Virus record (IMG/VR): IMGVR_UViG_3300017770_000161
Coordinates: 1-24,269 of that record
DNA: 24,269 nt
Strand: one strand, 5' to 3'
Origin: a virus
Both the position numbers and the translations under genes were made by a program. The notes below the pieces were generated by a model. The model saw only the letters and a list, made by a program, of their open reading frames with translations. It searched no databases and had not been told where the DNA came from. Positions 2,071-17,331 of this stretch are shown here, piece by piece (the first letter of the stretch is position 1; each line of letters starts with the position of its first letter).

Positions 2071-3498
2071 CTATACTACATTCAGTTTTAATGCATGTTC
2101 CTTTACTTCTTCTATGTTCTTAAGGTTAATAATGTTGTATTTTCTAACTAATTTATTTACATCAGCCATTAGATTAAAGCCATTTGTATCACCATGCGCA
2201 CCAAACACAGCCATATCTGATACCCATATTCTTCTAGCTGGTTGTTTACCTAACCACTCTAAAGCAGGGCCGTCTACAACATTACCATAACCTGAATGCT
2301 CATCTAGATACTTTTCAGTTACACGTTTACCATTCTTTGCAATAATACGTAAATCACCTGTATTACTTTTACCATTGTACATAGCAATAGTAACAGCAGG
2401 TAACTGCTGCATAACTTCTAAGATATCTTGACCATTAAATGACATAGAACCTGATGCATCAATAAGTATTGTGCCTCCAAGTGCTGTTACTTTCTGTTTA
2501 AATATCTTTTTATCTATACAATATCTGTTTATATACTTAGGATTGTAACCAAAGTCAGCTGGTCTGTATGACCTACCATTCTTAAGTCTACTTTGTAAGT
2601 TAACAGTTAATGGTGGTTGATGCGTAAACATTACACCCCATTCACCGTGACCATCAGAACTACTATATAATAATTCAGTAATATCATCTCTAGTACGTTG
2701 TTCTAAAGAACCACCACCTAACTCATTAGATTCTTGAGCTTTACCTTCGCCTTCTCCTTCTTGTTGCGAAGATGTAGGTTTTGGTGCTGGTTTATATACT
2801 TCATCATGCTCAGGTTTATCTCTGAACATATCAAGTATTTTACTTAGTGGTTCTGCATACTTTTGTACTTTACGATAACTAATAGTTTGACCCCAGCTAT
2901 GATTAGTAATATTATGCATAAATTTAGTAATAACTCTTTGTGCATACATAATTTGATTTTTACGAAAATCAGTAACATTAGGGTCATTTCGTATCATGTC
3001 AAAACATGATGACATAACAATCCATTCATCATTATATTTATATCTATCATACTTACGGTCAGGGTCATTATCTGGTACTCGCCATCTACTAGCTAGACCC
3101 ATAAGTATTATTTCTGCAATACCTGACTCATAAACTAATTTCATAGTTTTTTGTTGTATTACATCTAAACACTCTGATGGCTCAGATAATGCAAGTTTGT
3201 TCTCATGTAAAAGATGGTTAACTCTAACTTCTTCTAGTACATGAACAGCTTCTGCACGTACACCTGGTTTTAGCTTACCCATAGTCTTTGGACTCCACTT
3301 GGCATGACCAAGTTCATGTCTACGTATCATACGACTATGATTGATACCACATTCCTCGCACTCTCTATCGAGTGGAACTGTCATCTGTCTGTTGAGATTG
3401 TCTGTAGAACCATCAGGACTGTTGTTAACAGTACCTACTACTTCCCATTTCTCACCAGTAACAATTTCTGGATATGGATAAGCTTTACTGTTAGGCAC
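2071..3498 (-). CDS. CobT-like VWA protein with HELGH metallopeptidase motif
   Basis: A 475-aa protein. The N-terminal part has RRHELGHAKWSP (HELGH at 61-65) followed by a helix containing LEEVRV (about 88-93), the zinc-ligand pattern of gluzincin-type peptidases. The middle (about 235-285) is low-complexity, rich in E, G, S and Q. The C-terminal part is a von Willebrand A domain with an intact MIDAS motif DASGSM (D347, S349, S351) and a later VSD near 428. The start is GTG, overlapping the stop of the AAA+ gene by 8 bases, indicating coupled translation. MoxR-type AAA+ ATPases and VWA proteins form chaperone- or chelatase-like complexes, and phage pairs of this kind are often labelled CobS/CobT. 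The substrate is unknown; a role in metal insertion or protein remodelling is inference. Confidence 0.8.
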   Translation of the reverse strand: MPNSKAYPYPEIVTGEKWEVVGTVNNSPDGSTDNLNRQMTVPLDRECEECGINHSRMIRRHELGHAKWSPKTMGKLKPGVRAEAVHVLEEVRVNHLLHENKLALSEPSECLDVIQQKTMKLVYESGIAEIILMGLASRWRVPDNDPDRKYDRYKYNDEWIVMSSCFDMIRNDPNVTDFRKNQIMYAQRVITKFMHNITNHSWGQTISYRKVQKYAEPLSKILDMFRDKPEHDEVYKPAPKPTSSQQEGEGEGKAQESNELGGGSLEQRTRDDITELLYSSSDGHGEWGVMFTHQPPLTVNLQSRLKNGRSYRPADFGYNPKYINRYCIDKKIFKQKVTALGGTILIDASGSMSFNGQDILEVMQQLPAVTIAMYNGKSNTGDLRIIAKNGKRVTEKYLDEHSGYGNVVDGPALEWLGKQPARRIWVSDMAVFGAHGDTNGFNLMADVNKLVRKYNIINLKNIEEVKEHALKLNVV

Positions 3499-4216
3499 GT
3501 GCTAATGTAACAGCGTCTATCAATTCCTCTGCTTTTTCTGCAAAGATTAATTGTGCTGCTATTTCTGGAGTAAAGCCATTATCTTGTAAGTTAAAGAACT
3601 CTGTCCATGCACGTACTGAAATACGTTCTTCATCATCCTCTACTAATGTTGTATCATTAATTACACCATGCCACTCATCTGGAAATTTTTCCATTGCTTT
3701 AGGGTGTATACTGTCAACATATATTTTTACAGGAAATCTGTCTTTCAAAGCCAATGGTAATGACTCTGGTGGACTGTTAGTTGTAGCTACGACTTGAAAG
3801 CCGTCAGCTGGTTTAACTGTCTCCTTTGTATCGTTATTTAATGTCAACATTGCTATTTCTTGGTCGTCAAGAATAGCATGTAGAAACGTCATTGCATCTG
3901 GTGATGCATGGTCTATCTCGTTAATTACAAGACGACCACCATTTTTCCATGATTGTATTGCAATACCGTCATGCCACTCAAAAGTACCTGTGGTAGATGG
4001 TTTGTAAAAACCTTCTAAGTTTGCACTAGCAGTGTCTTCTGTCATAGTTATTTGATAGATATTATCTATTTCTTTTTCTGCTGATTTACTATACGCTTTA
4101 GGCGTATTAGTTTTAACAGCACTGTATGTCTTACCTGTACCAGGTGGGCCATAAAGTAATACTCTACGGCTATTGCCCAATACAGATTCTACTAATTCCC
4201 AGCAATCTTTTGCCAT
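3491..4216 (-). CDS. MoxR/CobS-type AAA+ ATPase
   Basis: A 241-aa single-domain AAA+ ATPase. Walker A is GPPGTGKT (23-30), Walker B is LVINEID (96-102), sensor 1 is TTN (145-147) and the arginine-finger region is ALKDRF (156-161). The insert between Walker A and B contains LEGFYKP, like the pore-facing segment of MoxR proteins. It is shorter than most cellular MoxR proteins (about 300 aa), so the C-terminal lid is reduced. The start ATG at 4216 has a strong GAAAGGAG site. The partner VWA protein starts inside its stop codon region, so the two are probably made together and work as a complex in which the ATPase remodels a target recruited through the MIDAS domain. The target cannot be read from the sequence. 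Confidence 0.88.
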   Translation of the reverse strand: MAKDCWELVESVLGNSRRVLLYGPPGTGKTYSAVKTNTPKAYSKSAEKEIDNIYQITMTEDTASANLEGFYKPSTTGTFEWHDGIAIQSWKNGGRLVINEIDHASPDAMTFLHAILDDQEIAMLTLNNDTKETVKPADGFQVVATTNSPPESLPLALKDRFPVKIYVDSIHPKAMEKFPDEWHGVINDTTLVEDDEERISVRAWTEFFNLQDNGFTPEIAAQLIFAEKAEELIDAVTLARA

Positions 4217-6232: not shown

Positions 6233-6538
6233 CTAAGCCTCACTACCTTCAAATAATGATAATTGCTTGATATTATCAACTTGTTTAATTAATTTAGGCA
6301 ATTTATTTAATTGACGTGCAATATAAGTCTTAGACTCTTTATGTAGTGCAATTAAGTTCGGCTTGCCTCCAGCTGTCGGTTGTGCAACACAGTCGCCGTG
6401 TAGGTACGACTTCCATGTTATCCAGCCCTTCTGTGGTCCGAAGTAGCTTTTTATAGGATGTCTTTCGTCTGGAAATACTTCTTTATGACATATGCCACAA
6501 TCGATAGTATCTATCCATTTAGTATATTCTTTATTCAT
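6233..6538 (-). CDS. 101-aa zinc-finger-like protein
   Basis: Taken from ATG 6538 (MNKEYTKWIDTIDCGICHKE) behind GAAAGGA. A GTG at 6592 would add 18 residues with another CxxC (MSCQVC), but that GTG lies inside a hairpin stem (6563-6596), so the later start is preferred. Motifs: CGIC, then HPIKSYFGPQKGW, then SYLHGDCV. The CxxC plus H/C pair can hold one zinc, and the arrangement resembles small phage zinc-finger proteins that bind nucleic acid. The C-terminal half is a basic helix (ARQLNKLPKLIKQ). It is the first gene of the leftward set and the nearest to the long structured region at 6678-7127. Precise role unknown. Confidence 0.7.
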   Translation of the reverse strand: MNKEYTKWIDTIDCGICHKEVFPDERHPIKSYFGPQKGWITWKSYLHGDCVAQPTAGGKPNLIALHKESKTYIARQLNKLPKLIKQVDNIKQLSLFEGSEA

Positions 6539-6562: not shown

Positions 6563-6596
6563 TTTTGTTGTCTTACAGACCTGACAAGACACAAAA
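6563..6596 (-). promoter_or_regulatory. 11-bp hairpin before the 101-aa gene
   Basis: TTTTGT (6563-6568) pairs with ACAAAA (6591-6596) and GTCTT (6570-6574) with AAGAC (6586-6590), with one bulged base and an 11-base loop. It ends about 10 bases before the GAAAGGA site, as in the other left-arm genes. Its presence argues against the upstream GTG start at 6592. Confidence 0.5.
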
Positions 6597-6677
6597 TCCT
6601 TAAATACGGAAGGACTTAGAAAGTTGAATGAATAGAATATCTATGGATGATACTAGATTGGCATTGACATAAAAGTA

Positions 6678-7127
6678 TTACAGACCAAGACGCACTCGAA
6701 AGCCTCGGCGACAAAGGTCTGTAACATTAAGTTATCCTCACTGTACTGTAAGCACAATACAGTAGAGGCAAGTAACTTAATGAACAGCTGGAATGTAACT
6801 CATTGTACGGATAACACTGTAGTTATATATAGTATCCATATGTATGCATAGTCATATCAATACACTACATATGGTATTAAATCAATACGGGATACTATAT
6901 ATAGTAGGTCACTTTACCGTAAGGTAAAGACATTCAGTACAGTATACAATATATTGTAGGTCTATCTATATATACTTCAGTACTGAATGTTGTTTGACCT
7001 ACCAGTGTTAACCTTGATGTTCTACAGGTATACAGTAAGGCTAGAAATATATGCTGGTAATTCTGTAATACAGTAGGTGGCTACAGTCTTTTTAGGCACT
7101 AGCGGGCATTAGTAATTGTGTGCCTAA
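6678..7127 (+). ncRNA. large multi-helix non-coding region upstream of terL
   Basis: The 775 bases between 6538 and 7314 hold no credible gene. From 6678 stems follow each other almost without linkers: TTACAGACC/GGTCTGTAA (6678-6724); then abutting CATTAAGTTA/TAACTTAATG (6725-6782) with CCTC/GAGG and TACTGT/ACAGTA inside; TATATATAGTATCC/GGATACTATATATA (6824-6837 with 6890-6903) overlapping CCATATGTA/TACATATGG; then abutting a three-way junction: GTAGGTCA/TGACCTAC (6904-6911 with 6995-7002), CTTTACC-GTAA-GGTAAAG (6912-6929) and ACATTCAGTAC/GTACTGAATGT (6930-6940 with 6980-6990). TTAGGCAC/GTGCCTAA (7092-7127) follows. GTAA is a GNRA loop on the plus strand only, favouring rightward transcription. 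A structured RNA, replication origin or packaging (cos/pac) site are the candidates. 6597-6677 and 7128-7249 show nothing further that I could support. Confidence 0.5.
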
Positions 7128-7249
7128 TCAAACGTTTTCTAATGTCCTTGGGTACTGCCTTTGTCTTTCTAGTGTACTGTCTTGCCAGTCAGCAGCTTTC
7201 TACATCCCGATTGCACCTTCACCTGTAACAAATTACTTGTGTTTGATGT

Positions 7250-7278
7250 TTGTAATTGACAGTATGTTACCATATAAT
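7250..7278 (+). promoter_or_regulatory. sigma70-like promoter for the packaging/head operon
   Basis: TTGTAA (7250-7255), 17-base spacer, TATAAT (7273-7278). Transcription would start near 7285, about 29 bases before the terminase ATG. The -10 box is perfect, the -35 matches 4 of 6. AATTAC/GTAATT inverted repeats overlap the -35 and could bind a regulator. Confidence 0.65.
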
Positions 7279-7313
7279 TAGCACTACGCAAACATCTACA
7301 GAAAGTTAGTTAA

Positions 7314-9224
7314 ATGGGTCAAAATGTTGTATGTATAGCTCAAGGCTGTAGGAAGCGATTAAGTGGGAAACAAAGAAAATTTTGTTCACCTACCTGTCAA
7401 AAGAGACAGTTCGCAGCCGACAAGCGACATAATGACAAGGTTGAGAAACCAATTAACCGTGAACTAAAATCTGATGATGGCGACTACGCTAGTGTTAGAC
7501 GAGGTACGTATTACCGAGCTTTCGTAAGTGAAGGATACGCCGAGTTACTAGCTAATGGAGACATTAGTGTAGCTGAGGTATCTTTACTCCTTGAGACTAG
7601 CTCGGCTACCGTCTCTCGAATGGCAGCTGCCTACAAAATTGACACCAGGAACTCCATCGCTGCTGACGGATGGGAAATATCAGAGGATGCACAAAAGAGT
7701 TTAGAGAATTTTTCTAGCTTCCGCGAAAAATATTTTCGTACGGAACTAGGTAAGAAGTATGAAACAGCCCCCTTCCATACTAATTGGATAAATAACATTA
7801 TAGATTCTATTAATAACGGTAAAGAATTATTAATATTAAGCCCCCCAAGACATGGAAAGACAGAACTGTTAATACATTTTGCTGTGTATCAGATATGCAA
7901 GAATCCAAACTTACGTATCATGTGGGTAGGTGGAAACGAAGATATAGCTAAAAATGCTCTTAGCGCAGTCCTAGACGTGCTTGACACGAACGAAGAACTC
8001 AGAGAGGCATACTGTCCCCCAGGTACATCTTTTAAACCAGATAACCGTTCTGGTAAGAACTGGTCACAGAATCAATTTACTGTAGGTACAAGAACTGTAG
8101 CTGGTATTAAATCACCAACTATGGTTGCTGTAGGTAAAGGTGGAAAGATATTATCTCGTGACTGTGACTTGATTATTGCTGATGACATTGAAGACCACCA
8201 AACTACTATGCAGGCAGGTGCAAGAGAATCTACAAGACAATGGTGGACAACAACATTATCTTCACGTAAAGAGGAACACACAGCTGTTGTCGTAATTGGT
8301 TCAAGACAACACCCTGATGATTTATATAACCATCTTTTAGAGTCAGATAACTTTACTTCTATAGTTGAATCTGCACACAAACTAGAATGTGAACTACCAG
8401 AACATACAAGTGAAGTACATACTGATTGTATGCTATGGTCTTCTAAACGTTCACACAAATGGTTAATGTCTAGATTACATTCTGCTGAATCAACAGGTGG
8501 TAGGCAAATATTCGAGATGGTGTACTATAACCAAACATACATAGAAGGTACACAAATCTTTACTATGAATATGGTTGACCAATGCATGCGACCTGATTTA
8601 GTTATGGGACAACATTATAGAAATTTACATTTAGTAGCTGGACTTGACCCTGCATCATCAGGATTCCAGGCATCAGTACTTTGGGGTATAGATGCATATA
8701 GAGGCGAATTGTTTTTAGTAGATTTAGAAAATAGGCAAGGGGGCGGAGTAAGGGCTGCACTTGACCAAATGTCAGATTGGTTACACAAGTATGATTGTCG
8801 TCAATGGATAGTAGAAGAAAACGGTTTTCAAACTGCTATACGTCAAGATGATAAAATAAAAGAATTTACACTACGTAGTGGTATTCAGTTACAAGGACAC
8901 CTAACAGGTAAAAACAAACATGACCCACTATATGGTGTAGGTGCAATGGCTGATTTGTTTGAAAATAGAAAAATACATTTACCTACAGGTGATTCAGAAA
9001 GTAGTGCTAAAATACAAAAATACAGACAACAGTTGTTATACTTTGATGGTAAACCTGTTTCAAAGCGAAACAAGGAAAAAACTGATATAGTTATGGCTAG
9101 TTGGTTTCCGATGAAGGTATTTAGACGTATGCAAAAAGAACGTCTAGCTGACGTTGGAACAGACTACGAACCAAGTTATGGAGATTTTAAATTAACTAAT
9201 ATGAATGATGCACCATGGGGATAG
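7314..9224 (+). CDS. terL: terminase large subunit with N-terminal zinc finger and HTH
   Basis: 636 aa. The packaging motor that pumps phage DNA into the prohead and cuts it. ATPase: Walker A-like SPPRHGKT (176-183), Walker B LIIADD (286-291), coupling region VVVIGSRQHP (325-334). Nuclease (RNase H fold): GLDPASSG with D445, then IVEENG with E501/E502, and a late acidic residue in KTDIVMASW. Unusually, the N-terminus has a four-cysteine motif (C7-x4-C12-x11-C24-x3-C28, including FCSPTC) and a likely helix-turn-helix (about 84-108, ISVAEVSLLLETSSATVSRM). These look like the DNA-recognition part usually supplied by a separate small terminase, and no small-terminase gene precedes it here. Length exceeds typical TerL (about 450-550) by this extension. 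The ATG has only a weak AGAAAG site. The portal start overlaps its end. Confidence 0.93.
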   Translation: MGQNVVCIAQGCRKRLSGKQRKFCSPTCQKRQFAADKRHNDKVEKPINRELKSDDGDYASVRRGTYYRAFVSEGYAELLANGDISVAEVSLLLETSSATVSRMAAAYKIDTRNSIAADGWEISEDAQKSLENFSSFREKYFRTELGKKYETAPFHTNWINNIIDSINNGKELLILSPPRHGKTELLIHFAVYQICKNPNLRIMWVGGNEDIAKNALSAVLDVLDTNEELREAYCPPGTSFKPDNRSGKNWSQNQFTVGTRTVAGIKSPTMVAVGKGGKILSRDCDLIIADDIEDHQTTMQAGARESTRQWWTTTLSSRKEEHTAVVVIGSRQHPDDLYNHLLESDNFTSIVESAHKLECELPEHTSEVHTDCMLWSSKRSHKWLMSRLHSAESTGGRQIFEMVYYNQTYIEGTQIFTMNMVDQCMRPDLVMGQHYRNLHLVAGLDPASSGFQASVLWGIDAYRGELFLVDLENRQGGGVRAALDQMSDWLHKYDCRQWIVEENGFQTAIRQDDKIKEFTLRSGIQLQGHLTGKNKHDPLYGVGAMADLFENRKIHLPTGDSESSAKIQKYRQQLLYFDGKPVSKRNKEKTDIVMASWFPMKVFRRMQKERLADVGTDYEPSYGDFKLTNMNDAPWG

Positions 9225-11160: not shown

Positions 11161-11530
11161 ACGTGGAGGATATAGACAACCTACTGCTAATACTTCTAAT
11201 GCTGTTTCTGGTCCTGGTGCATTAAGCCAAAGAACAGACGGCAATGCTTCTGCACCTGCAGCTGCATCTGGTGGAGACTACGGTCAAAGAAAAGCTATTG
11301 AAGAACAAGTATCTGCTGGTGGTGGATTACCTAAAACACAATCTATTGCACCTCCTAATGTTTTTGCACCTACAGAAAATCCAAATGAACCTATAACAGC
11401 TGGTGTACCTATAGGAGCTGGAGAAACACCAACTATAATTTCTGATAATACTGATATAATTTTACAAGCATTGTATCAAACTAACCCTTCACCAATAATC
11501 TTGGAGTTAATAAACAACAGGAACGTGTAA
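11147..11530 (+). CDS. conserved Gly/Pro-rich virion-module protein
   Basis: 127 aa, start ATG 11147 behind AAGGA. The N-terminus MAKSRRGGYRQPTANTSNAV leads into SGPGALSQRTDG, followed later by FAPTENPNEPITAGVPIGAG. This basic start, SGPG..S.RTDG motif and 'P.EP.TAG.P.G.G' segment recur, from memory, in proteins encoded just after the portal in many actinobacteriophages. The function there is unassigned; a disordered head-assembly or minor capsid role is plausible. The C-terminus is a short helix (IILELINN). The next gene starts in its stop codon (TAATG). Identity of the family is moderately sure, function is not. Confidence 0.7.
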   Translation: MAKSRRGGYRQPTANTSNAVSGPGALSQRTDGNASAPAAASGGDYGQRKAIEEQVSAGGGLPKTQSIAPPNVFAPTENPNEPITAGVPIGAGETPTIISDNTDIILQALYQTNPSPIILELINNRNV

Positions 11531-14500
11531 TGGGTAGTTATTACATAGAAGATTATTTTAAAGAAAATGAATTTAATCGTGCAAACAAACTTGCACAAAA
11601 TCAAATAAAAAATTACAAAGTTGCTTTTGAAGGTCAAAGTGAAGTATTTAATAATATACAAAAAATAAGTGACCAGTACAGTGCTTTACCGACTGACGTT
11701 GTAGTTGCACTAGCAATAAATGGAGTTAATCCTGATTATTCATCACTAGGCGATATTGAAGATGAAGTTGTAAATTTAAAAGTTAAAAAAGAAGCTGACT
11801 TATGGACTGAACTTTATGAAAAATATCAACCTGAAGATATGGAAAAAAACATGAAAATGACTGTTGGTGATTTATTAACAGGAGGTTTTGCTCCAGGTGG
11901 TACTAAACCAGGTGATGTTCAGTACGGTGTATGGGCATTTGCAGGATTAGATGCTTTATTTCAAACATTTGGACCTTCAGGTAAATGGTCTCTTTTAGCT
12001 TCTGGTGCTAATGCTTTAGTTCCTGGACAAGTTATGCAAGTAGGTAGGTCACAAGCATATTTACGTGATATACGTTATTACGACAAATTGTTGCAAGATG
12101 GTTATACACCTACAGAAGCACAAGGAATGTTACAAACTGATGTTAGTTGGACTGAAATAGAAGATATTGGTAAGGATACAAATATTGTTGGTGATATTAA
12201 AAAACATATAGATATGATACAAGAAGCTCATAAACTAGGTGGAGAACCTTTATTAGCTAATATGATGAGACAAGTTTTAAATGGTAAACCAGTAAACTTT
12301 GATAGAGGTACAAAAGCTACACTTGAATCAATAGATGCAACAAAAACACCTATGTTTCATGATTTAACTACACAATACGGTTATTCAGAAGAAGAAGCTA
12401 AAAAGTTTATTTACAGTAATATTGGTGAGCCTATTAAACAATTTGATGAAGATGGTGAAATACATTATACATCCGCAGAAAATCCTAACAAAATTAATTT
12501 TTATGCTGGTAGAAGTAAACAAAGATACATGTGGTCAGGACAAACTGCACAAGATTTTTACAAACCTCAATGGTCAGATAAAAATATTCTCATGGAATAC
12601 TCACCAGGGAGAGTTATATCTTCAGAAATTGTACAACCTGGCTCTACAGCTTTTAATACTTTGTCAGGTACATTAGATGCTACTTATCAAATAGTTCCTG
12701 AAATACTTGCTGGTAAAGGATTAAAAGGTATACGTAATGTTAAAAAAGGTTTTAGAGGTATAAACAAAGCTATGGAAGCTACTGAACTTGGTTTAGTAAA
12801 ACAAACTGGTAAAACAATTAAAATATCTCCTAATGCAATAGCAGACGATATTATTGAAACTGTAGCAGATGAAGTTGATGCTGTTACTGGTAAAGGTAAC
12901 TTTGATAAATTTGTTAATTTTAACAGTAATACATTAACAAAATATTCTGACGATGTTGTGGCTAATCGTAAACAAGTACGAGCTGCTGCTAAGAAATTAA
13001 AAAAAGAATACACAGTATTTGGTAGAGTACCTAGATTTTTTCAAACAACAAAAGATGAGGTACTTAATCAACCATTAATGGATAACTTTTTTAATGCTTT
13101 AGCAAAAACTGACCAAACAGTTGAACATGCAGTAGCTACAAATCCTATATTAAAAGAACTACATCCTGAAGTAATATCAGAAATATTAGAAGAATCTAAT
13201 CCTTCTGTAATTAAAAAAATGTTTGGTGATATGGTAGACCAAGGATATGTAGTTAAAGCTACACCAGAAACAGGATTAACACAGGATTATATACAAACAT
13301 TAGATACAATATCTGATGGGTTATTACCTGTTAAAGGTTCTTTTACTTTAAATAAAATATCTCAGAATCTTGCACAAACAGGTACACGATTACAAACAAA
13401 AAGCAATCCTGCAAAAAGAGCATTAGGTAGAGTTGCTTCTACTGTTGGTAATGAAAACGCAGCATACAGAAACTTAGGTTCTTTTGTTGGAGAACAAGGT
13501 AGAAAAGTAAGAGATTTATTTCCTGGCAGAAAACTTACACAATTAAAACCAGTAAATAAAAATGAAACAATTTTAGATACTACACAAGCTGCTGGCGAAA
13601 TGATTAAAAAACAAAAAATTGTTGATGAGCTTGACCCTACATATGGAAAATTAGAGTTTGAAAAATATATGGGATTTAGTTCATCATATAATTCGTCATT
13701 TAATCCTTATTATAGAAAACTACTAGGAGTAGTACCTTATTTAGGTATTCCATTAAACAACTTTGCAACAGGTTATAAACAATTAGCTAGTCATTTACAA
13801 GTGACAGGTTACACAATAGAAGAAGCATCACAACAATTGCGTAAATTTAGAAATTTAGATTTTAATGATAAACCAAAAATTAGAAAATTTGCATATGACC
13901 AAATGCAAGCAGATGTTGCATTAATTAAAAAACGTGGTGGTAATGATGAAATAGTTGCACAAATTGTAGAAGAACAATTTAATGGTATTCAAAAATCTAA
14001 AATATATGCTACTGGTAGAGATGGTGAAACATTACCCAATCCTGGTTCTAGAAATGAAGTTATTAGATTAACTGACCCTAAAGATGGTAAACCTAAAAAT
14101 GTAGAACATGTTACTGCACACTTGTTTTCTGAAATGTCAGATAATGTTGTACCTCTTTTAGATTACAGAATAGTCAATAGAGCTATGGGTAAAGTATTTA
14201 GAGCGCAACCTGGTGGAGAAGCAATTACTGGTGTAAGAGGGTTTGCATACGATTCTAAAGAATTTGTAAAATTTGCATCTCCATTTAGTGATAGAACAAC
14301 TAATCCATTTAAAGGTGGATTAATTAATACTAAAAAATTAAATGATGATGCTGCAACAATGTTAGCAGAATACTATACACGTAATGTTTTTAAACCTTTA
14401 GTACTATTAAGAGCTGCTTTTTTTACTCGTGTGTTTATTGAAGAACAAGCACGTATAGCTGTATCTGGAATGGATGGCTTTTTTAATCATCCTTTTAGAT

Positions 14501-17331
14501 ACATACAATGGTTATCTAGTGGTGTAGAGGATTCTAAATGGGCTAAGTTACCAGGAATAACTGCAGCAAATGCAGATGGTGTAGAGCTTTTAGCTTCATC
14601 ACAAGCTAGAGAAGCAGCACAAAAAACATTTTTAAGTTCAGATTTTCTTTCAACAGCTAAATACAACAGAGATGTTAAAGGTTTAGAGTATATTACTAAA
14701 TCTAAAGTTGATAGTTCTAATGTAAAAGATTATACATTAGGTGCTTTTAACGAGTTAATTCAATTAAGAGATGATGAAATATCTAGACAAGTAGCTAGAT
14801 ATAGATATGGTAGTAAAGAATTAAATGATTGGTTATATAGTGAAGCAGGATTTGCTGCTAGAAAAAAACTATACGATTGGGGCGGTAATGATTTAAAACC
14901 TATGCTTGCTGATAAAGATTTTATAGACCAATACGTACAATCTATTGAAGCACGTATACGTGTTAAAACTGGTGGTATTGTAAAAAAAGGTGTTGATTAT
15001 CGTAAAGTAAACAATACAAGAAAGTATAGATACAGTTTAACTTCAGGTGATGTTGGTGATGATAAGTTACGTTATGCAATAGCAGAAGGTAAATTGTTTG
15101 ATTCTAGTTTTGATTTAAAAAATGCTGCTACAGCTACAAGAAAAGACTATTTAGACTTTAGCGAAAATCCTGAAAAAACAATAAAATATTTTAAGAAACA
15201 AAAAGTATTAGACAGGTTAGAACTATTTTTTACAGATGAAGGATTAAATCTTGACATAGGTGATGTTAAGTTATCACAAAAAATAGATGATGGTAGTAAA
15301 CCAGGTGTACAAGATTTACTAGATGGTTTAGATAATGCTACCAATGCTGTATTCGAAAATTTAATGACTAAACCTATTGGTTATTTAAATAGGTCAATTG
15401 TTTTTAAACAAAACAGATGGCTTTACGTTGGTAATAAATTTCAATATATGAGTGATGGATTACGTAATAAATATATAAAAGAAGCAATAGATTCTGCTGT
15501 ACCTAAATCTGTTGTAGATGAATTAAAAGGTTTAAAAAAACTATATCCTTCTGGTGCTATAGATGATTATTATACAATGAATAATCAATCTAAAGCTTTT
15601 GGATTATCTATGACTAAACAATTATTATATGATACAACACAAAAGCATGCATTAGCAGATAAATTTACAAACATATTTCCATTTGCTGAAGTTTGGTTTG
15701 AAGTATTTCAAACATGGGGTAAGTTATTAGCAGAAAATCCTACAGTTTTACGTAAAGCACAAGTTACTACTAGGGGATTTGGTGGCGCTGATGCTTTAGG
15801 TGCTAGTTCAGATAATGGATTCTTCACACCTGCACCAGGTAACAGTGATGAAGAAATGTTTGTTTATCCTTGGGGTGGTTTTATGACCGATGTTATTTTT
15901 GGAAAAGATACCGAAGGCGTGGGTATTTCTCCTAAAGGTTATGTAGCAGGTATAAACTTATTAGGACAAGGTTTTGTTCCTGGACCTAACCCAATGGTTT
16001 CTTTTGCAATTAATAAAGTATTACCAGAAACAGCTTGGGCTGATGAAGTTAGAGAAAGAATGTTTGGTGTATTTACACCTCCAGAAAAACTTACTGACGC
16101 TTTAAGACCTGATAAATTAATATCTGCATCATATAAAAAGTTTATTGCATGGATGAAAGACCCTGAATCTTTTGAAGTTATTAATGATAGTTCTAGTGAA
16201 ACAGAAAAAATGCGTGCTAATGAAACTATAGATATATTTAGATATGGTATGGCTGCAGGTATACACAATCAATTGTATGATGACGGAAAATTAAATAAAC
16301 ATCTTGATAAATTAAATCCTGATGGTTGGTCAGAAGATACTATAAGCAAAAAACAAATTAGTGAAGCATACTTAGAATATTCAAAATATGCATCAGGCGA
16401 TTTGTTTATGTTTCAATTTATTTTGCAATTCTTTGGGCCTACTGGAATGAAACCAGAATACGTAATTGATGATAAAAATGGTAATCAATGGGGTAATGCT
16501 GTTCTTTATGAAGAATATGTACGTATACGTAATAAAAATAACAATGACTATTTAGCAACACATAATGAGTTTTTAGAGTTATATGGTTTTGAACATCCGT
16601 GGGTAACAAGTCCAAGGTCACAAACAACAGGTCCTAAAGAACCTTATACTGCTGCAGCTGCTAGATGGAAACAAGAAAATAAAGAAATATACGATATGTT
16701 ACCTAAAGGCACTGCTAATTATTTAAATCTTGATAATCCATATGATGAAAGAAGTTTTACTGAACTTAATGTAAATAGACAACAAATGTCTCCTGATTTA
16801 TATAGACGTAATGTAAATGACACAATAGGTTTTTTACGTTATAAAACATACAGCGAAAAAGTAGAAAGATTAGATGCGTCTAATGAACAAAAAATCTTAC
16901 TAAAACGTTTTTATAGAAATGCACTTATTGACGAACTACCTGGTTTTCAAACAGATGAAGAAGGCGTAGTAGCACAAACATCATCTATAACTAAATATAT
17001 AGAAATGAAAGACAAATGGGTTACTAAAACAGATACAGGGTATATACCAACAGAAAGTTTAAGTAATCAAGATGCTGCTAAAGGCTTTGCTGAAATGTTA
17101 CCTTTTTGGGAAGAAATGGAAAATATATCTAAAGATTTTAGTCCTTCAAGAAATCCTGATTGGTGGTTAAGTTCTGAAGATGTTAAAGCTAGAACTATGC
17201 GTATATGGATGTATAATAAAGCACAACAGATTATAGCAGAATATCCTGAGTTTTGGGGTGTGTGGACTGGAGTTATGTTAAAGTTATATAGAGACGACCA
17301 AGAATATTTAGATTACTTACCAGAAAGTTAA
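11530..17331 (+). CDS. very large putative internal virion (ejection) protein
   Basis: 1933 aa, by far the largest product here and about a quarter of the window. It is mainly helical and lysine/asparagine-rich, with few cysteines. Hydrophobic stretches that could insert in membranes include VWAFAGLDALFQTFGPSG (about 135-152), KPLVLLRAAFFTRVF (about 957-972) and SGDLFMFQFILQFFG. Near the C-terminus a block with FPFAEVWFEVFQTW and GQGFVPGPNPMVSFAI resembles segments of large internal core proteins of phages. Its place between portal and scaffold, and the long helical make-up, fit proteins carried inside the head and ejected with DNA. No lysozyme, protease or transferase motif was found, so enzymatic activity is not claimed. 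It starts at TAATG. Confidence 0.6.
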   Translation: MGSYYIEDYFKENEFNRANKLAQNQIKNYKVAFEGQSEVFNNIQKISDQYSALPTDVVVALAINGVNPDYSSLGDIEDEVVNLKVKKEADLWTELYEKYQPEDMEKNMKMTVGDLLTGGFAPGGTKPGDVQYGVWAFAGLDALFQTFGPSGKWSLLASGANALVPGQVMQVGRSQAYLRDIRYYDKLLQDGYTPTEAQGMLQTDVSWTEIEDIGKDTNIVGDIKKHIDMIQEAHKLGGEPLLANMMRQVLNGKPVNFDRGTKATLESIDATKTPMFHDLTTQYGYSEEEAKKFIYSNIGEPIKQFDEDGEIHYTSAENPNKINFYAGRSKQRYMWSGQTAQDFYKPQWSDKNILMEYSPGRVISSEIVQPGSTAFNTLSGTLDATYQIVPEILAGKGLKGIRNVKKGFRGINKAMEATELGLVKQTGKTIKISPNAIADDIIETVADEVDAVTGKGNFDKFVNFNSNTLTKYSDDVVANRKQVRAAAKKLKKEYTVFGRVPRFFQTTKDEVLNQPLMDNFFNALAKTDQTVEHAVATNPILKELHPEVISEILEESNPSVIKKMFGDMVDQGYVVKATPETGLTQDYIQTLDTISDGLLPVKGSFTLNKISQNLAQTGTRLQTKSNPAKRALGRVASTVGNENAAYRNLGSFVGEQGRKVRDLFPGRKLTQLKPVNKNETILDTTQAAGEMIKKQKIVDELDPTYGKLEFEKYMGFSSSYNSSFNPYYRKLLGVVPYLGIPLNNFATGYKQLASHLQVTGYTIEEASQQLRKFRNLDFNDKPKIRKFAYDQMQADVALIKKRGGNDEIVAQIVEEQFNGIQKSKIYATGRDGETLPNPGSRNEVIRLTDPKDGKPKNVEHVTAHLFSEMSDNVVPLLDYRIVNRAMGKVFRAQPGGEAITGVRGFAYDSKEFVKFASPFSDRTTNPFKGGLINTKKLNDDAATMLAEYYTRNVFKPLVLLRAAFFTRVFIEEQARIAVSGMDGFFNHPFRYIQWLSSGVEDSKWAKLPGITAANADGVELLASSQAREAAQKTFLSSDFLSTAKYNRDVKGLEYITKSKVDSSNVKDYTLGAFNELIQLRDDEISRQVARYRYGSKELNDWLYSEAGFAARKKLYDWGGNDLKPMLADKDFIDQYVQSIEARIRVKTGGIVKKGVDYRKVNNTRKYRYSLTSGDVGDDKLRYAIAEGKLFDSSFDLKNAATATRKDYLDFSENPEKTIKYFKKQKVLDRLELFFTDEGLNLDIGDVKLSQKIDDGSKPGVQDLLDGLDNATNAVFENLMTKPIGYLNRSIVFKQNRWLYVGNKFQYMSDGLRNKYIKEAIDSAVPKSVVDELKGLKKLYPSGAIDDYYTMNNQSKAFGLSMTKQLLYDTTQKHALADKFTNIFPFAEVWFEVFQTWGKLLAENPTVLRKAQVTTRGFGGADALGASSDNGFFTPAPGNSDEEMFVYPWGGFMTDVIFGKDTEGVGISPKGYVAGINLLGQGFVPGPNPMVSFAINKVLPETAWADEVRERMFGVFTPPEKLTDALRPDKLISASYKKFIAWMKDPESFEVINDSSSETEKMRANETIDIFRYGMAAGIHNQLYDDGKLNKHLDKLNPDGWSEDTISKKQISEAYLEYSKYASGDLFMFQFILQFFGPTGMKPEYVIDDKNGNQWGNAVLYEEYVRIRNKNNNDYLATHNEFLELYGFEHPWVTSPRSQTTGPKEPYTAAAARWKQENKEIYDMLPKGTANYLNLDNPYDERSFTELNVNRQQMSPDLYRRNVNDTIGFLRYKTYSEKVERLDASNEQKILLKRFYRNALIDELPGFQTDEEGVVAQTSSITKYIEMKDKWVTKTDTGYIPTESLSNQDAAKGFAEMLPFWEEMENISKDFSPSRNPDWWLSSEDVKARTMRIWMYNKAQQIIAEYPEFWGVWTGVMLKLYRDDQEYLDYLPES

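Follow-up and report, generated by a model that had tools for sequence, protein, structure and literature searches.

Evidence for a large folded noncoding RNA encoded opposite the terminase gene in a broad group of phages

Introduction

In the aquatic phage sequence studied here, the gap that separates the leftward genes from the large terminase gene (terL) most likely encodes a large folded noncoding RNA, which is read from the minus strand and whose core has been kept by matched mutations in dozens of phages. The sequence, hereafter the window, is a 24.3-kb virus record (IMG/VR virus record IMGVR_UViG_3300017770_000161; 24,269 nt). A first-pass annotation had noticed tightly packed stems and a three-way junction in this gap, and had likened them to the large structured RNAs of phages or to an origin or packaging site. 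The likeness to a large structured phage RNA has gained support from covariation, but the plus strand on which it had been drawn has not: wobble pairs and a promoter-like box favour the minus strand.

At the level of sequence comparison, the data establish a conserved fold on a defined strand, which occurs once per positive record, lies at the boundary between divergently oriented genes and is shared by a broad group of phages. From this, we infer transcription, a promoter, both ends of the RNA and an action in trans. In the interpretation that we consider probable, the element is a free-standing structural RNA of roughly 590 nt that is transcribed leftwards from its own promoter, divergent from terL, and acts in a manner similar to GOLLD and ROOL. 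It would consist of a compact conserved 5' domain, in which closing helices surround a branched core, and of a 3' part with long stems that vary between lineages. Made from a single genomic copy, it would fold to a defined shape and work through that shape, be it as a homo-oligomer, as a scaffold or as the partner of a protein, rather than as the controller of one neighbouring gene. Such an action through shape has been proposed for GOLLD and ROOL. More tentatively, with rather less than even confidence, we suggest that it represents a new class of large phage RNA that is widespread in aquatic phages, has no kin in Rfam and acts in trans as a folded or self-assembled particle during infection.

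So far, the large structured RNAs of phages fall into a small number of classes, the best known being GOLLD and ROOL. A further class would offer an independent case for comparison, one whose strand is defined, for which a promoter is likely and a search model exists, and which has many members; its RNA could be produced and probed in vitro directly.

Genomic setting and sampling of relatives

The left part of the window carries leftward genes, including those for an exonuclease and a CobS-like AAA ATPase, while its right part carries rightward structural genes, of which terL (7314-9224, plus strand; phrog_38, E 1.3e-62) is the first and which include a gene for an SU10-type capsid protein. 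The RNA element is located in the 714-nt gap that separates the leftward genes from terL, and no ORF of at least 60 aa was found on either strand from 6592 to 7314. The first leftward ORF downstream of the RNA spans 6233-6538 (minus strand) when counted from its ATG start; its longer GTG form has no match in Pfam or PHROG.

Relatives were collected in several ways. A TerL search of IMG/VR yielded 80 loci, among which the gap could be aligned and was best conserved beside terL. With a DNA pattern derived from the best-conserved part of the gap, additional loci were retrieved, including one from a contig that had been binned with a gammaproteobacterium. Among the loci found with this pattern, L096 is the most divergent; its TerL, which is 52% identical to that of the window, was used as a query and yielded 80 more relatives. 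The core of the element (97 nt, 7139-7235) occurs in 77 distinct versions in the first set of relatives and is also present in divergent phages with a TerL that is only about half identical. When the window region and a divergent member were searched against phage records at the nucleotide level, neither gave a match, and the TerL matches in the same records were all below 60% identity (22-29% among the matches listed). The only copy found in the bacterial genome collection resides on PAEL01000115.1, part of a metagenome-assembled genome of a Mediterranean gammaproteobacterium; the core was sought in 117 relatives of this bacterial bin and found in none of them. This contig may either indicate a host or be a stray phage contig.

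The conserved core

The conserved part of the element extends from 7127 to 7247, with the core at 7139-7235 inside it, so that the strongly conserved structure falls beyond position 7127, where the first-pass annotation had placed the right-hand boundary. The covariance model built for the core, R1, matches the window at 7139-7235 of the minus strand over its full length with 113.7 bits (E 3e-24), a score to be read with the window's lineage being part of the seed; divergent members from outside the seed score 44-60 bits.

Covariation was assessed with our own script, which re-places substitutions on a tree and is similar to R-scape, albeit simpler. It was applied to three alignments, of which that of 67 members was fitted to the model and therefore leans its way, while those of 80 and 33 sequences do not. 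In the structure-free alignment of 80 sequences, five pairs exceed the tree-based null at E below 0.05, each of them formed in at least 76 of the 80 sequences; they are located in the hairpin at 7201-7215, the hairpin at 7176-7189, the pair 7165-7172 and the long-range helix 7127-7133/7241-7247. In the core alignment of 33 sequences, read on the minus strand, all 561 of 561 cells pair, both-sided changes are seen in 11 of 17 pairs, and the covariation score is 0.606 compared to 0.165 +/- 0.015 for shuffles. In the model-aligned set of 67 members, which includes the divergent ones, nine column pairs are significant, and all nine belong to the model. The covariation analysis proposed in the first-pass annotation thus yields pairs beyond a tree-based null and supports a structured RNA, with a support that spans the first 120 nt or so of the RNA.

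From the outside inwards, the following helices were found, all on the minus strand. The outer closing helix (7127-7133/7241-7247), which has 7 bp in the window's lineage, encloses the core; five of its seven pairs appear in at least two Watson-Crick types among the 80 sequences, and the pair 7130-7244 is significant. The core-edge helix (7143-7145/7228-7230) is 94.4% paired, with both-sided changes in three of three pairs and a significant pair at 7143-7230. It is followed by a helix at 7151-7153/7221-7223, which is 100% paired and in which one pair changes from G-C to A-U. The remaining core comprises a hairpin with the heptaloop A[UC]CGGGA (7201-7204/7212-7215; three significant pairs) and a helix at 7155-7159/7191-7195 (two significant pairs), which surrounds two smaller elements: a hairpin at 7176-7179/7186-7189 (two significant pairs) and the pair 7165-7172, which closes a UAGAAA loop and is significant as well. 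In the close group, the latter pair switches from C-G to G-C while the loop stays unchanged. Both UAGAAA (7166-7171) and A[UC]CGGGA (7205-7211), given as on the minus strand, are unpaired and nearly invariant in the close group; in the divergent group, GGACUGGGAUUACCAC replaces UAGAAA.

The strand of the RNA

Within the covarying helices, wobbles appear as G-U on the minus strand and as A-C on the plus strand, which identifies the minus strand as that of the RNA. The same 33 core sequences are 100% paired on the minus strand versus 92.3% on the plus strand, and the tree events that touch wobbles amount, in the minus reading, to 21 G-U and 0 A-C. Read on the plus strand, the variable core pairs contain about 100 A-C cells and only isolated G-U. 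Individual helices follow this trend: the hairpin 7201-7204/7212-7215 has G-U on the minus strand where the plus strand would give A-C, and the pair 7159-7191 is U-G, G-C or U-A on the minus strand, but mostly C-A on the plus strand. The consensus fold also differs, with -14.75 kcal/mol on the minus strand against -5.86 on the plus strand. Cells that favour the plus strand are few compared with this evidence; they comprise two invariant wobbles, G-U at 7150-7224 and U-G at 7149-7225, a count in the outer helix of 4 U-G against 6 C-A, and a single terminal G-U in the 14-bp arm described below. Such a one-strand asymmetry of wobbles would not be expected of cruciforms or of double-stranded binding sites.

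Two coarser measures were tried and set aside. The fold of the gap is better than that of dinucleotide-shuffled sequences on both strands (z -6.8 on the plus and z -6.0 on the minus strand, with 0 of 20 shuffles as good on each), so that fold energy cannot pick the strand; likewise, z-scores over 13 records gave no consistent separation. Over all mechanically predicted stems of at least 9 bp, G-U and A-C were about equally frequent (125 and 141), because most such stems are unconserved, and only the covarying helices are informative. More generally, a region that looks rich in stems when one strand is read by eye may encode its RNA on the opposite strand, and wobble counts across relatives can settle which of the two it is.

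The distal part and the three-way junction

Within the element, conservation is lowest in the stems on which the first-pass annotation had focused. They exist base for base as described there, with perfect stems abutting from 6678 to 6782 and from 6890 to 7002. On the minus strand of the distal part, S1 (6678-6686/6716-6724; 9 of 9 pairs) abuts S2 (6725-6734/6773-6782; 10 of 10 pairs), which contains inner stems at 6736-6739/6765-6768 and 6740-6745/6758-6763; this arrangement (6678-6782) is kept in the closest relatives. A 14-bp arm follows at 6824-6837/6890-6903 (minus strand), of which 12-14 of the 14 pairs are kept in 13 relatives. The three-way junction (6904-7002, minus strand) is built from P1 (6904-6911/6995-7002; 8 bp), P2 (6912-6918/6923-6929; 7 bp, loop GTAA on the plus strand) and P3 (6930-6940/6980-6990; 11 bp), and its linkers were also correctly given: P1 adjoins P2 and P2 adjoins P3 directly, while four bases (6991-6994) separate P3 from P1. 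A candidate for an additional stem in the inner arm was dropped, as 0 of its 6 pairs form.

As for their conservation, S1, S2, P2 and P3 have no counterpart at the aligned positions of two relatives (L014 and L016). One compensated pair each was observed for S1 and S2, in a single relative (L012), and one for P3, in ten relatives. The three-way junction does not hold as a conserved core, given that 8 of 13 close relatives have lost two of the eight pairs of P1 with no compensating change; it is best seen as a lineage-specific distal ornament. The GTAA tetraloop, which had been taken for a GNRA loop, loses its relevance on the minus strand, where it reads UUAC.

By eye, motifs of about UGCCCGCU, UUACCAG and UUUAAUACC (minus strand, near 7099-7110, 7054-7060 and 6870-6880, respectively) recur in the same order in the divergent group, which suggests that homology may reach past the modelled core.

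Distribution

At E below 2e-7, R1 matches 46 sources, and in all of them the core is on the strand opposite terL; each of 24 longer records contains exactly one copy. In the window's lineage, the RNA is the immediate upstream neighbour of terL; in the divergent relatives, other genes intervene and the distance between the core and terL reaches about 2.5 kb. In about 20 records with a related TerL, many of them short fragments, the models detected no copy. These include L234, L236, L254, L258 and L262, among others, in which TerL is about 62% identical to that of L096 and the core went undetected. In such records, the core may have been lost, may have diverged beyond the reach of the models or may lie outside the fragment. 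A tRNA search of the window and 31 related loci found none.

Proposed promoters, ends and transcription unit

The proposed RNA would run leftwards over about 590 nt, from about 7257 to 6668 on the minus strand. Its length was estimated from motifs and the absence of genes, its 5' end from the proposed -10 box, and its 3' end is a guess based on the last stem and the T-rich flank of this stem, where the scan detected no terminator. The putative promoter consists of TTGCGT (7291-7286), a spacer of 16 nt and TAACAT (7269-7264), preceded by TG, on the minus strand. At the aligned position of this strand, most relatives, though not all, have a TGnTAnnnT box, which is followed at a nearly fixed distance by an ACAAAYA start. 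The window's own box, TAACAT, is weak, and a generic promoter scan does not report it. This promoter-like box at the 5' end of the RNA removes the puzzle of a missing upstream promoter, which arose from the plus-strand reading. On the plus strand, the promoter scan found a likely terL promoter (TTGTAA-17-TATAAT, 7250-7278; 10 of 12), the TATAAT of which is conserved in the window's lineage, and the two promoters are thus likely arranged back to back.

A scan of the minus strand between the RNA and the leftward genes found no terminator, and the RNA may therefore be co-transcribed with them; the sole minus-strand site, at 6247-6222, lies directly after the first leftward ORF and is a terminator-like hairpin, GGTAGTGAGGCTTAGGCCTTACTATC, with a T-rich tail.

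Alternative explanations

The main rival to a free-standing RNA is that the transcript serves the leftward operon as a structured 5' leader of great length, controlling the elongation or translation of its first genes in cis. Although we regard it as rather unlikely, it is a serious rival, because the RNA heads leftward genes that no detected terminator separates from it. These genes begin 0.55-1.1 kb downstream of every copy examined, and the first downstream ORFs fall into a single family across 8 divergent records and into a different one across 5 records of the window's lineage. Yet, while the RNA core stays, this ORF changes between lineages (also in L286, L292 and L297), being often of one family within a lineage. 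Moreover, few leaders would be expected to span such a distance. In 15 relatives, an ORF of at least 60 aa is first reached 0.55-1.1 kb downstream, which is about the length of the noncoding stretch in the longest noncoding cases; one record has a 102-aa ORF at 425. The variable distance to terL and the variable family of the first downstream ORF together indicate that the RNA has no fixed partner among its neighbouring genes.

An origin of replication, to which the RNA would contribute as a structured primer or as a single-stranded initiation signal, is improbable. It would accord with the structure being confined to one strand and with the location of the gap at the minimum of the cumulative GC skew, but the orientation of the genes alone yields such a minimum. 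Some large plasmid RNAs do belong to replication regions, which counts in favour of this explanation.

Still less probable is a packaging RNA or a packaging site that works with the terminase, as considered in the first-pass annotation. It is suggested by the window's lineage, in which terL has the RNA immediately upstream, but the RNA is encoded on the opposite strand and points away from terL, from which it is separated by up to about 2.5 kb and other genes in divergent relatives; a double-stranded site, in turn, would lack the wobble asymmetry. We give very little credence to a functional RNA on the plus strand that is centred on the GTAA-capped junction. Although single sequences fold at slightly lower energy on this strand, which also has the GTAA loop and a few G-U cells, this reading is opposed by the wobble counts (about 100 A-C cells against isolated G-U; 21 events to 0), by the unconserved P1 and by the absence of a conserved upstream promoter on the plus strand. 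Finally, that the stems reflect chance or palindromic protein-binding sites in DNA, without any RNA, is suggested by the fast change of the distal stems, but is already contradicted for the core by the tree-based covariation, the fold z-scores and the one-strand wobbles; we consider it next to impossible, although single distal stems may be of this kind.

Comparison with known RNAs

The element shares two traits of large structured phage noncoding RNAs in that its structure is backed by covariation, over the first 120 nt or so, and in that it is noncoding over several hundred nucleotides, judged by the lack of ORFs of at least 60 aa and by the 0.55-1.1 kb that precede the first downstream ORF in 15 relatives. 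A cmscan of the window and six relatives against Rfam 15 matched no family, ROOL and GOLLD included; sub-threshold matches at permissive settings were mostly to microRNA models and were taken as chance. Searches with individual models were likewise negative for GOLLD (RF02032; 8 records), which is weak evidence by itself given that 14 control genomes gave no match either, for ROOL (RF03087), for which the controls were also silent, and for group-II-D1D4-1 (RF01998). Among the titles and abstracts listed by searches of the open-access PMC literature, none describes the element. Judged against these titles and abstracts and Rfam, its novelty is provisional.

GOLLD, a large structured RNA of phages, combines a conserved with a variable region and has marine members; ROOL is often found near tRNA islands, and among the noncoding RNAs of bacteria, OLE and raiA are stable, large and structured (PMC12286853). 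The RNA proposed here resembles GOLLD (RF02032) in being large, phage-borne and partly conserved, partly variable. However, the conserved region of GOLLD is at its 3' end and that of our RNA at its 5' end (minus strand), and GOLLD is commonly, though not obligatorily, located near tRNA islands, whereas our RNA has no tRNA neighbours. A homo-oligomeric cage is a further mark of GOLLD. ROOL (RF03087) is of similar size, with a model of 574 positions, and likewise stems from phages and prophages, but its model does not match, and the tRNA islands found near ROOL are missing here. The phi29 pRNA, a part of the DNA packaging motor, is also a structured RNA encoded by a phage, and in the window's lineage a packaging gene is nearby; by contrast, our RNA is far larger, is encoded opposite terL at a variable distance and has no match in Rfam. 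OLE and raiA, finally, are similar as large structured noncoding RNAs, but are bacterial, while our RNA is phage-borne and, again, without a match in Rfam.

Other features of the window

Amid the structural genes, a 1,933-aa ORF (11530-17331, plus strand) has no match in Pfam. A second match to the core inside this ORF was weak (E 0.09) and was regarded as chance. Among the leftward genes, at 2071-4216 (minus strand), the CobS-like AAA ATPase (3491-4216; AAA_5, and phrog_249, which is labelled porphyrin biosynthesis) adjoins a 475-aa protein (phrog_33218), with which it possibly forms a CobS/CobT-like pair.
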